Below, piece after piece: positions 10,898 to 15,876 of a DNA stretch of 42,182 bases. Position 1 is the first letter of the stretch, and each line of letters starts with the position of its first letter. Made by a program: the position numbers and the translations under genes. The notes under the pieces are model-generated. The model saw nothing but the letters and a program-made list of their open reading frames with translations. It was not told where the DNA came from and did not search any database. The DNA is from Synechococcales cyanobacterium bin59.metabat.ball.084 (GTDB lineage: Bacteria > Cyanobacteriota > Cyanobacteriia > Cyanobacteriales > Chamaesiphonaceae). Where the stretch lies: assembly GCA_013297675.1 (NCBI GenBank), contig JAAFHZ010000026.1, forward strand, positions 1 through 42,182. The letters run 5' to 3'.

Positions 10898-11521
10898 CTA
10901 CTGACCTTTTTTAGCTTTAGAAACTCCTTTATTTTTAATACCTAAATAATCTTGAATTTTTTGTATTTTCTCAGACATTATGTCATTAGTTTCATTGTAT
11001 CTGGTTGTCATTGTACTTACGACAAGGCCACTAATAAAAAATGTTGGTATAACTATTGCCATCCATACTATCAATAGATTCTTCCAATCAAACATATCAT
11101 TGTGAGAACTCTGCTGCAAAACCAAAGTTTTTTTAATCATTAAAATAGAATCTTGAATTTCATCTTGTTCTTTTTGCAAAGATCTCAACATATTCTTTAT
11201 GTCATCTAGAGTATCTATTTGAAGATGATTAGCTTTGTCTATGGTGCTTTTTACTAGAACAATATTTGGCCTAACTAAGTCCATTTCTTGCCCTAAATAC
11301 TCTAGATTATTGACTACTACCGTCAGATATTTAATCGATTCTTGCATCGCTGAAGATAGATCGGATATATCAGTACTTCCTTGCTTTTTTTGATGCTCAA
11401 GGAAGTCAAAAATTTGTCCTAGGCTATGTACTATACCATCGATTTCGCCTTGCTGTTCTTGAAGGATTTGATTCGATGCTGTGCGATCACCGCTATTTCG
11501 AGAAAAATTACCTTGATCCAT
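10898..11521 (-). CDS. coiled-coil protein with single C-terminal membrane helix
   Basis: 207 residues; ATG at 11521. Residues 20-140 are long heptad-rich helices (IVHSLGQIFDFLEH, SIKYLTVVVNNLEYL, DDIKNMLRSLQKEQDEIQD). Residues about 147-170 (NLLIVWMAIVIPTFFISGLVVS) form one membrane span. A short Lys-rich tail (IKNKGVSKAKKGQ) follows, suggesting a tail facing the cytoplasm or a positive-inside anchor. I recognise no family. It leads a three-gene minus-strand unit, 50 bp before the tlde1 gene. It could be a membrane tether, adaptor or delivery factor for that enzyme; this is inferred from order only. Confidence 0.65.
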   Translation of the reverse strand: MDQGNFSRNSGDRTASNQILQEQQGEIDGIVHSLGQIFDFLEHQKKQGSTDISDLSSAMQESIKYLTVVVNNLEYLGQEMDLVRPNIVLVKSTIDKANHLQIDTLDDIKNMLRSLQKEQDEIQDSILMIKKTLVLQQSSHNDMFDWKNLLIVWMAIVIPTFFISGLVVSTMTTRYNETNDIMSEKIQKIQDYLGIKNKGVSKAKKGQ

Positions 11522-12056
11522 GACTTAATCCTTTCTATTTTGTATGTGACTTTGTGAATTTTATAGCAGGCTCACCAGTTTTTATGTAATTCACCTCTTT
11601 TGTGAAGAGGTATTTTTATTTAATTATTGTCTAGTAATATTCTGATCTAAACCATCCTTATCATAAAATACGTTTTTCTATATTGCAACCCACTTCATAA
11701 GCATACCAGCGGTCAATTGGCACTTTACAGCACTTTCCAGTTAGGTGAAGCACAAAAATTTCTGTAATTAGTCACTGACTTTTGAAAGCCTGCAATCACT
11801 AACTGGCAGAGCTTACAAGACTTTTTCATTTTCTAGGTTTTCTTGACTGATGACGAAAGAATGCAGGTTTCAGCGTTCGGTGAGGTTTTCGGTAAACATA
11901 AATATTTCTTATGTCGATCTATAGATCTTCAACTGACAACACTTCTAAGCTTTGTCATTCTCAATAAGACCATCCTTATTGCGATTACTAATTACAAATT
12001 TCTCTGAAAGACTGGTTCAGTAATGGCCAAGCATACCTCATGAATACGGAAAGCGC
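11522..12056. other. AT-rich non-coding stretch upstream of the three-gene cassette
   Basis: No convincing ORF. A hairpin at 11591-11609 (ACCTCTT/AAGAGGT) is followed by ATTTTTATTT on the plus strand, resembling a terminator with no upstream gene. An 8-bp inverted repeat CCAGTTAG (11737-11744) / CTAACTGG (11799-11806) with similar flanks may be the end pair of a degraded small element. The promoter of the cassette should lie near 11530-11650 but I cannot place it. Confidence 0.35.
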
Positions 12057-12079
12057 TGTGGCTAAGTCGATCGAGTGAT

Positions 12080-12189
12080 GGGTGCGTGTGACTTTCTGAA
12101 AATAAAAATCAGACAGGCCGATCAAGGCTAGCAGCACCAACGGAAAATAGAGTCTGGTAAATTTTCTCCTTAGAAAGCCACACGCACCC
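12080..12189. mobile_element. 110-bp MITE with 18-bp terminal inverted repeats and 9-bp target-site duplication
   Basis: The left end 12080-12097 (GGGTGCGTGTGACTTTCT) and the right end 12172-12189 are inverted repeats with one mismatch in 18. The element is flanked directly by TCGAGTGAT at 12071-12079 and again at 12190-12198, a perfect 9-bp duplication. It is too short to code a transposase, so it would be mobilised in trans by a full element with the same ends. A 9-bp duplication fits several IS groups (for example IS1-, IS4- or IS903-like); I cannot assign one. A minus-strand 72-aa frame (11988-12206) reads through it and is probably incidental. Confidence 0.85.
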
Positions 12190-12240
12190 TCGAGTGATTT
12201 TGTCATGAAAATCCACGCAGGAAACTTTCTGGTGGTATTT

Positions 12241-12261
12241 TAGACTATTTTGCAGAGTCTA
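12241..12261 (-). terminator. small hairpin downstream of the Uma2-like remnant
   Basis: TAGACT (12241-12246) pairs with AGTCTA (12256-12261), 12 bp past the stop of the minus-strand remnant. Six base pairs and no strong U-run, so it is a weak terminator candidate. Confidence 0.35.
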
Positions 12262-12273
12262 TTTTGGCTGGTA

Positions 12274-12444
12274 TTAGCCAGGATCAATGCCGAGTTTTCG
12301 CAGCTTTGCTTTTAGTTGCTCAACTTCTTGTTTGGCAATAGGTAATAGGTTAGCAAATTCTTGAGAAGAGATAGTTGGCATAATTTTGGGTACCAAGTAC
12401 ACGGTCTTCGATCTGGTTGATGGGTAGAAACCCGCTCCTCGATT
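12274..12444 (-). pseudogene. 3' remnant resembling the C-terminus of a Uma2-family gene
   Basis: An open minus-strand frame of 56 codons without a proper start, closed upstream by TGA at 12445-12447. It reads FYPSTRSKTVYLVPKIMPTI, then an amphipathic helix (IAKQEVEQLKAKLRKLG) and ends IDPG. That layout (short beta strands then a coiled tail ending in LRxLGIDP) is seen at the C-terminus of many cyanobacterial Uma2 (DUF820) proteins. Upstream coding-like words in another frame (YPDREVIRLLVDI, 12452-12520 region) suggest further frameshifted remains. An intact Uma2 gene lies divergently 150 bp away. The assignment rests on weak pattern similarity. Confidence 0.35.
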
Positions 12445-12598
12445 TCAGCTCAGATTGATATGTCCACCAGTAAGCGAATTACCTCTCTATCGGGGTACTC
12501 CAGCCTGCGTAAGTTAATATGAATGTAGATTGCAGAAGTAACCTATTTTTCAAGACTTTTTAGATTGACTGATTGTTAATGCGTTTGCCACCAAAACA

Positions 12599-13192
12599 AT
12601 GAATACCTCAATCGCCTCTGAACCCATCACCACCCTACATAACCTCAAATCCTGGACAGTCCGAGACTATCACCGCATGAGTGAACTAGGAATCCTTAAC
12701 CCCAATGAACGAACTGAACTAATTGCCGGACAAATTACCCTGATGGTTGCCAAAGGAACACCCCACGTCATCACTCTACAACTGCTAGCTAGTGAACTAT
12801 TAGCCCAGCTTGGTACCACCGCTCTCATTCGTACTCAAGATCCTATTCATCTGGATGATTCCTCAGAACCAGAACCGGACTTAGTAATTGTGCAAGGGGA
12901 AATTTTAGATTACGTCGATCGCCATCCCCAACCTACCGATATCCACCTCTTGGTAGAAGTCGCCGATTCTACCCTCAACTATGACTGCCAAGTCAAAGAT
13001 AAAATTTATGCAAAAGCTGGCATCTTAGAATACTGGGTGATAGACCTAAAAAATCGCCAAGTTCATATTTTTCGAGACCCTCAGACAACCGACTATGCCA
13101 GCCACTTAATTTTGGCGGAATCCCAAACAGTTTCTCCTTTGGCATTTCCCCATGTGATTATTCCGATCGCTTCCATCTTGCCTCCAGTGTAA
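12599..13192 (+). CDS. Uma2 (DUF820) family putative PD-(D/E)XK nuclease
   Basis: 197 residues, complete. Family marks: YHRMSELGILNPNERTELIAG near the start, EPEPDLVIV (the metal-binding Asp) near residue 97, and HLLVEVADSTLNYDCQVKDKI with E and K in the PD-(D/E)XK core near residues 122-138, followed by YAKAGILEYWVIDL. The fold is restriction-endonuclease-like, and the family is strongly expanded in cyanobacteria, where its role is unresolved (DNA repair, mobile-element or host defence have been suggested). No ribosome binding site is clear. It ends 16 bp before the deacetylase gene. Confidence 0.88.
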   Translation: MNTSIASEPITTLHNLKSWTVRDYHRMSELGILNPNERTELIAGQITLMVAKGTPHVITLQLLASELLAQLGTTALIRTQDPIHLDDSSEPEPDLVIVQGEILDYVDRHPQPTDIHLLVEVADSTLNYDCQVKDKIYAKAGILEYWVIDLKNRQVHIFRDPQTTDYASHLILAESQTVSPLAFPHVIIPIASILPPV

Positions 13193-13208: not shown

Positions 13209-13937
13209 ATGCAAATCCAGAAACTTCTTCGTTTACCCCATCTTCCTTGGATATTGCTGTGTGGCACAGTGGTAGCTTTGGGATGGTTGGTGCTGCGGCC
13301 ACCCCGCGTGCTGTTTCAGCTAACAAATCACTTTTTTCCGGGGGCAATATACTTTGCTGCTACCGATCGACCAGTGATTGCTCTGACGATCGACGATGGC
13401 CCAGATCGCACAACTACTAATCAAATTCTGGACGTGCTCGATCAGCATCAGGTGACGGCCACTTTTTTTATCATCACCGATCGAATTCCGGGCAATGAAC
13501 AAACTCTACAGCGAATGTTAAAAGCTGGTCATGAATTGGGCAATCATACCACGGCAGATATTCACAGTATTGGCCTCAGCACGACCGCCTTTGAGCAAGA
13601 TCTCATCAAAGCTGATGCCATTTTAAAAACTTTCAGACAGCCCCAATGGTTGCGCCCTGCTGGTGGCTGGTATAGCCAAGAAATGATTAGTGTTGCCCAG
13701 AAGTACAACTACAAAGTTGCACTTGGTTCGATTTTTCCTTATGATACCAATATTTCTTCGCCTTGGTTTGCCACCCAATTCATTTTGGCCAATGCTCAGC
13801 CCGGTAGCATCATTGTGATGCACGACTCTGGCGACTGGGGCAAAAACACTGTTAAAACTTTAGAACAGGTGCTACCTAAGCTCAAACAGCGAGGATATCA
13901 GGTCGTTAATCTTTCAGCATTGCAGGTTCGTAGTTAA
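13209..13937 (+). CDS. polysaccharide deacetylase (NodB homology domain), membrane-anchored
   Basis: 242 residues with an N-terminal hydrophobic anchor (about 12-30) and the NodB domain from residue 55. Motif 1 is ALTIDDGPD (D62, D63). Motif 2 is GNHTTADIHS, where the usual HxxxH metal pair reads HxxxD, as in some cyanobacterial relatives. Motif 3 is LRPAGGWYS and motif 5 is SIIVMHD. Carbohydrate esterase family 4 enzymes remove acetyl groups from peptidoglycan, chitin-like or exopolysaccharide substrates outside the cytoplasm. The substrate here is not predictable. A short inverted repeat (TTCGTAGTTAACTACGAA) spans the stop and may act as a terminator. Confidence 0.88.
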   Translation: MQIQKLLRLPHLPWILLCGTVVALGWLVLRPPRVLFQLTNHFFPGAIYFAATDRPVIALTIDDGPDRTTTNQILDVLDQHQVTATFFIITDRIPGNEQTLQRMLKAGHELGNHTTADIHSIGLSTTAFEQDLIKADAILKTFRQPQWLRPAGGWYSQEMISVAQKYNYKVALGSIFPYDTNISSPWFATQFILANAQPGSIIVMHDSGDWGKNTVKTLEQVLPKLKQRGYQVVNLSALQVRS

Positions 13938-14364: not shown

Positions 14365-14427
14365 TTGACACTCTCAGGGCTAAAGCCGCTGAGATTCTAT
14401 AGAGACTTCGCTTCTATACTCTCTATA
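14365..14427 (-). ncRNA. putative omegaRNA 3' part / right end of the TnpB element
   Basis: Two consecutive hairpins overlap and follow the tnpB 3' end on the minus strand: 14398-14405 with 14420-14427 (TATAGAGA/TCTCTATA), and 14373-14393 (CTCAG/CTGAG with an inner GGCT/AGCC). TCAA follows eight to nine bases later (plus-strand TTGA at 14365-14368), as at IS200/IS605 right ends. In TnpB systems the omegaRNA covers exactly this part, and the guide is the sequence beyond the right end. The 5' limit inside tnpB is not determined. Confidence 0.55.
14371..14393. repeat. direct repeat copy 1 flanking the tnpB-RHH module
   Basis: CTCTCAGGGCTAAAGCCGCT plus GAG; it matches 16156-16178 at 20 of 23 positions in the same orientation. 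It coincides with the terminal hairpin of the TnpB right end and overlaps the tnpB stop codon. Confidence 0.7.
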
Positions 14428-15876
14428 TATTCCGGCTTCAAACAGATTTAACTGCTTTAATATCGGATTCCTAGGCTCCTTCTCCAACGAGAACGATGTA
14501 TCCAAAGGCATAACTTTCCCGCAGCCCGCAGGTAGTGTTTTCTTTTTACCGGGGAAAACAAACCCAGCTCTTTGAGCTATTGCTCTTGATGCCTTAGTAT
14601 CAGCATGATCTGCATAGCCACAATTGCGACAAACAAATTTCTCGCCATCACGATTAGACTTTTCCGTGTGCCCGCAGCTAGGGCACTCTTGGGAAGTATG
14701 CCGGGGATTAACTGCCACTACCAGCTTCCCAGCCTTAATAGATAGCCATTCAATCATCTTAAAAATAGCTCCCCAGGCACAATCCAAAATGGATTTGTTT
14801 AGTCCAGACTTGGCTGCTGCTCCATTTCGGATATACCTTTTACCATCAGTCTTAGGCTTTGCCCGTTTGACCATATTTGTTATCTTTAGGTCTTCTCTTG
14901 CAATCAAATCAGCAGTTTTTACCACCCTGGTCGCTGCCTGCCAGTTATGCCCATCTCTTTTCTGGGCTAGCTTTTGTTTGACTTTACCCAGCTTGGCGTA
15001 AGCTTTTGTTTTATTCTTGGAGCCATTAACTTTTCTGGAGATAGCTTTAGTTCTAATCCTCAGCCGCCTAGCTACTCGATTGTTGGTCGTTGGACGAATG
15101 TTTTCAATAAACGAGCCATCACTTAGAGCAATCAACTTGTTAACCCCAACATCAATCCCTACGACAGATTGAACATCTTCCTTCAGTTCTGGCAAGACTT
15201 CACCATCATCTACCAACATGGATATATACCAAGAACCGCCTCTGCGTTTTATATTGCAAGTTCTAACCTCGGTAATTTTGCTAAAATCCCTGCTGTTATG
15301 GAAGCGCGTATCGCCTATACCTGGTAGATATACCGTGCCATACTTGTTTTTGATTGACTTCACTACTACTCGCCCAGGCTTGTACTCGAATGAATCCATC
15401 ACCCTGAAAAACTTTGGATATCCTTTGCCATGCTTCCAGAAATTAGTAAAAGCTGTATCAAGCGCAGCAATGTTTCTTTGAAGCACATCTGAATCTATAT
15501 CACCAAACCACGGGCTATCATGCCTGAGTTTCGTAGTTACCTTCATTTGAATTCCTGATGGGGAATCCCATTTGACTTGTCCTTTTGAATTTTTAAGCAT
15601 CAAAGAAACGTCATCAGGGATCACCCCATGCTTTTGGACTGGGCAGGTCAGCGGACTACACCAGATTTCAGCAGATTCTTCCCTAGTTTTGATGTCACAG
15701 TAAGATGCTTTGAGCATCACTTCCGATTGCTCAGAATGTTGGTTATTAGTCTCAAAGCCTTTAGACCTTTGCCTCAAAGCAAAGTTTCTATGTTTGCGTA
15801 GTGTCACTAACCAGCCTGACATTTTTTCGATTTGAGGCTGGGTAGGAACTAGTTTGAAATTCCATCTAATCAGCAA
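14380..15876 (-). CDS. tnpB: TnpB RNA-guided endonuclease (IS200/IS605 family)
   Basis: 498 residues. The TTG start at 15876 is supported by GAGGTG about 7 bases upstream. The N-terminal WED/REC-like part opens with [17 protein letters not shown]. RuvC-I is [12 protein letters not shown] (Asp about 242), RuvC-II is IAREDLKI (Glu about 328), a zinc finger has CPSC and CRNC (398, 401, 416, 419), and RuvC-III is [12 protein letters not shown] (Asp about 426). All catalytic residues are present, so nuclease activity is possible. TnpB cuts DNA guided by omegaRNA and helps retain the transposon. No TnpA (Y1 transposase) gene is present; a ribbon-helix-helix-like gene lies divergently 60 bp away. 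It would need TnpA in trans to move. Confidence 0.93.

Follow-up and report, generated by a model that had tools for sequence, protein, structure and literature searches.

What is the 110-bp sequence with inverted ends that lies in this stretch of cyanobacterial DNA, and which enzyme could have brought it there? In the initial annotation of the whole 42,182-nucleotide stretch (hereafter the window), positions 12071-12198 were read as a 110-bp MITE with 17/18 inverted ends and an exact 9-bp duplication, and both the coordinates and the letters proved accurate. We compared the element with its own genome, with the genomes of its family and with known transposon systems.

Anatomy of the 110-bp element

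The MITE spans positions 12080-12189. On its left, the letters and the flank comparison place a 9-bp target-site duplication, TCGAGTGAT, at 12071-12079, and the same 9-mer follows on the right at 12190-12198 (9/9 identical; neither copy is assigned a strand). The left terminal inverted repeat, GGGTGCGTGTGACTTTCT, occupies 12080-12097 (+). The right one, also 18 bp, occupies 12172-12189 (-) and matches the left one, inverted, at 17 of 18 positions. Weaker inverted similarity extends to 28 nt (82%). Between the two repeats lies the non-coding interior (12098-12171, +), which on either side resembles insertion-sequence ends over its outermost 10-16 bp.

The structure stands alone in the window. 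With up to three mismatches, the 18-mer GGGTGCGTGTGACTTTCT occurs twice, both times at the MITE, where 100 dinucleotide-preserving shuffles give an expectation of 0.03 for the window. We also scanned for inverted repeats that match at 15/18 or better, agree exactly in their outer 7-mer, lie 60-400 bp from each other and have duplications of 8/9 or more on their flanks. The MITE is the sole match in the window, and no match was found in any of 20 first-order Markov random windows.

At 110 bp, the element is too short to encode a transposase of its own, and no open reading frame of at least 80 aa is listed in 11522-12598. Hairpin folding is strong on both strands, with z-values of -6.43 and -6.37. 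A search of 11522-12598 against Rfam returned no family at the gathering score, and the two weak matches listed both lie outside the MITE.

Eight copies in the genome

Searching the own assembly (4.64 Mb, 220 contigs) with the 110-bp query identified eight full-length copies, all 110 bp long and 95-100% identical to the window copy. The search for the 18-bp ends, proposed in the initial annotation along with the prediction of further copies, gave 16 exact places in the genome. The copy on contig C81 is identical to the window copy and has different flanks. Six of the eight copies have 18/18 inverted ends, while the window and C81 copies have 17/18 and share the single mismatch in the right repeat. 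The expectation that other copies would also be flanked by duplicated 9-mers was largely borne out: the duplication is perfect at six of the eight, counting the window, matches at 8/9 for C177 and is absent at C57 (0/9). By eye, the target sites share no common motif. The C177 copy sits inside an IS982-family transposase gene. The element thus combines the traits of a MITE, namely small size without a transposase gene, terminal inverted repeats, target-site duplication and several genomic copies.

Uninterrupted insertion sites

For all eight copies, the flanks were joined without the element and without one duplication (except at C57, which has none) and searched against 11 family genomes. Occupied and empty sequences were compared by pairwise alignment of the joined flanks, since MAFFT had misplaced the gap. 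Matches spanning the junction were obtained for three of the eight insertions (window, C181 and C177), and no uninterrupted site was found in the 11 genomes for C2, C57, C81, C101 and C118.

The window site is uninterrupted in the sister genome G001, the only other genome of the genus compared. There, 96 query bases align on contig C65, 23 of them left of the junction, and the 9-mer is present once, with one difference. A polysaccharide deacetylase gene (window 13209-13937) adjoins the empty site in G001 with 82% residue identity. Neither the Uma2 gene nor the gene left of the MITE (10898-11521) has a match within the 3.1-kb G001 stretch around this site, and the DNA alignment between the window and G001 stops 23 bp left of the insertion. 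We therefore regard the two sites as the same place by their right side, the left side having been rearranged in one of the two genomes. The Uma2-family gene (12599-13192, +) lies between the MITE and the deacetylase gene in the window. Together with the identical copy on C81, the uninterrupted site in G001 agrees with the earlier proposal that the insertion is fairly recent.

The other two empty sites are of a different kind. The C181 site is represented by paralogous intergenic repeats, including one on C153 of the own genome (98%), and the C177 site by paralogous IS982-type genes of G006 and G002, so that both illustrate the sequence in its unoccupied state, at loci other than those of the two insertions. 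The flanks of C181 (L030, around 616-725) belong to an intergenic repeat family with recurring TTAGGCTGA-like motifs, which also includes C153 (L060 1279-1472), C103, C146, G001:C82 and G001:C69; a single copy of this family, that on C181, carries the MITE insertion.

A presumed partner insertion sequence with related ends

At C120:604-1764 lies an insertion sequence of 1161 bp flanked by a perfect 9-bp duplication, TATACCCCT. Its two ends match, inverted, at 16 of 18 positions and stay alike beyond the outer 18 bp. Six of the eight MITE copies have a right end identical to the final 28 bp of this insertion sequence, and the other two, the window copy among them, match it at 27/28; on the left, 2 of 18 positions differ between the insertion sequence and the MITE. 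A 180-bp left-end piece on C193 (97% identical), the sole other long piece of the insertion sequence in the own genome, carries the 18-bp left end without a mismatch. In the C101 copy, the outer 34 bp of the MITE match the insertion-sequence ends at 27-30 of 34 positions, and neither MITE end is clearly closer to the left or the right end. The insertion sequence lies between two pieces of a haem-peroxidase-like gene (L014 151-636 and 1669-3999), the downstream piece matching at E 7.2e-54 and the upstream piece at E 0.00025, below the Pfam cut-off.

Two coding pieces of the C120 element match the NCBIfam ISKra4 profile with E 1.4e-26 and 5.3e-29 (93.6 and 101.6 bits), each alone below the whole-protein cut-off of 205 bits. 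ORFA (69 aa, L014:671-880) has no match to this profile, and none of the three coding pieces has a Pfam match. ORFA and ORFB (stop to stop, 790-1443) overlap in the -1 frame at seven T residues (828-834), a putative frameshift site. Further on, the transposase frame breaks after a run of seven G, beyond which the gene continues to its end in a different frame (L014:1415-1735). Six relatives were given for comparison at this spot; L059 gave no row, and in all five readable ones the G run is shorter and interrupted. In four of these five the frame continues unshifted across the displayed residues; the comparison with the fifth, G001:C108, was made at the DNA level alone. The break could reflect either a genuine lesion of the gene or a misassembly, and because of it the C120 copy may not be autonomous, despite the ends that it shares with the MITE. 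No intact transposase gene with MITE-type ends was found in the own genome, and the ISKra4 profile detected no other transposase gene there at E <= 0.001. The partner insertion sequence predicted by the initial annotation was thus found, in the form of an element with closely related ends and a 9-bp duplication. This supports the earlier interpretation, with the qualification that the ends differ at 2/18 on the left and 1/28 on the right from the window copy and that the gene is frame-broken.

Relatives in other genomes

With a 154-residue query piece, the transposase was found in 6 of 11 family genomes, including the own genome and not the sister genome. Five relative loci from genomes of the family were examined for their ends. 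Perfect 9-bp duplications and 18/18 ends occur at L055 (1174 bp) and L056 (1226 bp), L058 (1218 bp) has ends matching at 24/24 and no duplication, and L057 and L059 yielded no pair of ends. The 9-bp duplication is thus usual for insertion sequences of the C120 type and not universal in this five-locus sample. The proteins of L057 and L058 exceed the ISKra4 whole-protein cut-off. When C120 and four relative loci were compared, a long -1 overlap of reading frames with a run of 7-9 T was seen in C120, L057 and L058, and a 10-nt overlap without a T run in L055, the frame of which contains a stop; for L056 no overlap was listed.

In the sister genome, pieces of the insertion sequence were found on C69, C82 and C108, all three at a contig end, as expected of a repeated element that breaks the assembly. 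A further match to the ISKra4 profile was seen in this genome at L050 (G001:C62:5479-5823, E 1.6e-18, profile positions 67-209).

Searching the 11 family genomes with the MITE (E <= 1e-4) gave matches in two and none in nine. The sister genome has no full-length copy, its matches being insertion-sequence ends and one decayed relative. In the named-genome collection, the exact 18-mer occurs in four stretches, two from the sister cyanobacterium (L040 and L041), one from a Chloroflexi bin (L038) and one from Vibrio (L039); the last two may be chance matches. Plasmid records contain no match to the MITE.

Decayed and distant relatives of the MITE were also found. Two decayed ones are alike in the interior as well, on C163 (75% over 75 nt) and on G001:C73 (72% over 88 nt). 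On C112, two more distant elements of about 100 bp with GGGTGCATGTGA ends (L018 1066-1168 and 4260-4361) lie where the surrounding sequence is repetitive; a search near their ends for 9-bp duplications of at least 7/9 found none, and they are possibly an older MITE subfamily. These relatives suggest that the MITE lineage is older than the eight recent copies.

Discussion

Together, our results indicate that the feature is a genuine, fairly recent MITE, a non-autonomous element probably moved in trans by the ISKra4-family (ISMich2-like) transposase of a C120-like insertion sequence, a reading to which we assign a probability of about 90%. The anatomy of the MITE is a matter of observation, and we infer the link between enzyme and element. 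The shared ends, the 9-bp duplications on both the MITEs and the insertion sequence, the near-identical copies and the uninterrupted sites support this reading. Against it stand the frame break in C120, the C57 copy without a duplication, the five of eight copies without an empty site and the MITE centre unmatched in C120.

For the ISKra4 family, 8- or 9-bp duplications and inverted ends of 18-39 bp have been described (PMC3942029), and for the ISMich2 group of this family, assigned there to p-MULT 4 of the Mutator superfamily, two reading frames joined by a -1 frameshift. The C120 element resembles these systems in its ISKra4 transposase match, its two-ORF -1 overlap and its 9-bp duplication, flanking 16/18 ends; the window MITE, by contrast, is a 110-bp passenger without a gene. 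By analogy with such systems, a Mutator-type DDE transposase of the ISMich2-like kind, made from two ORFs joined by a -1 frameshift and supplied in trans, would recognise the ends of about 18-28 bp and mobilise the MITE. It would insert the element at a staggered 9-bp cut, and gap filling would then produce the 9-bp duplication. Circular intermediates have been reported for members of related Mutator-like families (PMC3942029).

Could the hairpins account for the feature without any transposition? As a structural RNA or hairpin repeat, REP-like or terminator-like, the sequence would have been retained for regulation, and the strong folds on both strands fit this idea, but such folds are expected of any element with 18-bp inverted ends. 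Insertion is evident from the 9-bp duplications and the uninterrupted sites, one copy interrupts the IS982-family gene on C177, and the Rfam search of the region gave only weak matches outside the MITE, so that we consider this explanation very improbable. A chance inverted repeat that happens to lie within a chance 9-bp repeat is refuted by the eight genomic copies and by the empty random windows, and its probability is negligible.

A question within the preferred reading, whose odds are not to be added to those above, is whether C120 represents the source or a cousin of it. The MITE may have been moved by a different ISKra4-type insertion sequence that is now lost or is absent from the 220-contig assembly. 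The broken gene of C120, the two differences in its left end and the unmatched MITE centre favour such a lost source, as do the decayed relatives on C163 and G001:C73, whose recognisable interiors indicate that the lineage may predate the C120 copy. Against it are the 28/28 identity between the C120 right end and six of the eight MITE right ends, the exact 18-bp left end on the C193 fragment and the lack of another transposase gene under the ISKra4 profile in the own genome. On balance we regard a lost source as a serious possibility, somewhat less probable than not.

Whichever source moved the MITE, the origin of its centre is a separate matter. The central 48 bp of the C101 copy have no detectable match in the C120 insertion sequence, since 186 of 200 letter shuffles reach the same score or a higher one, and descent of the centre from C120 is thus unsupported. 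The central ~48 bp could come from an unseen related insertion sequence, of which the MITE would be a deletion derivative, or the MITE could consist of two ends with captured unrelated DNA. The interior is unlike any detected part of C120 and is still recognisable at C163 and G001:C73. Thus, it is tempting to speculate that the MITE has long formed a separate lineage within the genus, in which the same passenger was kept and re-amplified by successive ISKra4-type transposases and not made afresh, an idea that we put forward tentatively and think rather unlikely.

The MITE represents a new family, but one of a well-known kind, and the finding holds little surprise. Nezha, reportedly another MITE of cyanobacteria (Zhou et al. 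2008), is likened here to the window element by kind. As reviewed in PMC10969869, bacterial MITEs are likewise short and non-coding, share their inverted ends with an insertion sequence, duplicate their target and occur in several copies; the window MITE differs from them in no respect of kind, only in being a new sequence family. No title in our literature search pointed to an ISKra4-family MITE; the search did not extend to ISfinder or to most subscription papers, and we therefore make no claim of priority. The general picture is unchanged by this finding, which provides a clean MITE and a presumed partner for the ISKra4/ISMich2 transposon type, of value in annotation and as a substrate for testing. 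Elsewhere in the window, positions 14380-15876 (-) encode a 498-aa protein with OrfB_IS605 and Cas12f1-like TNB domains, a TnpB-type gene.
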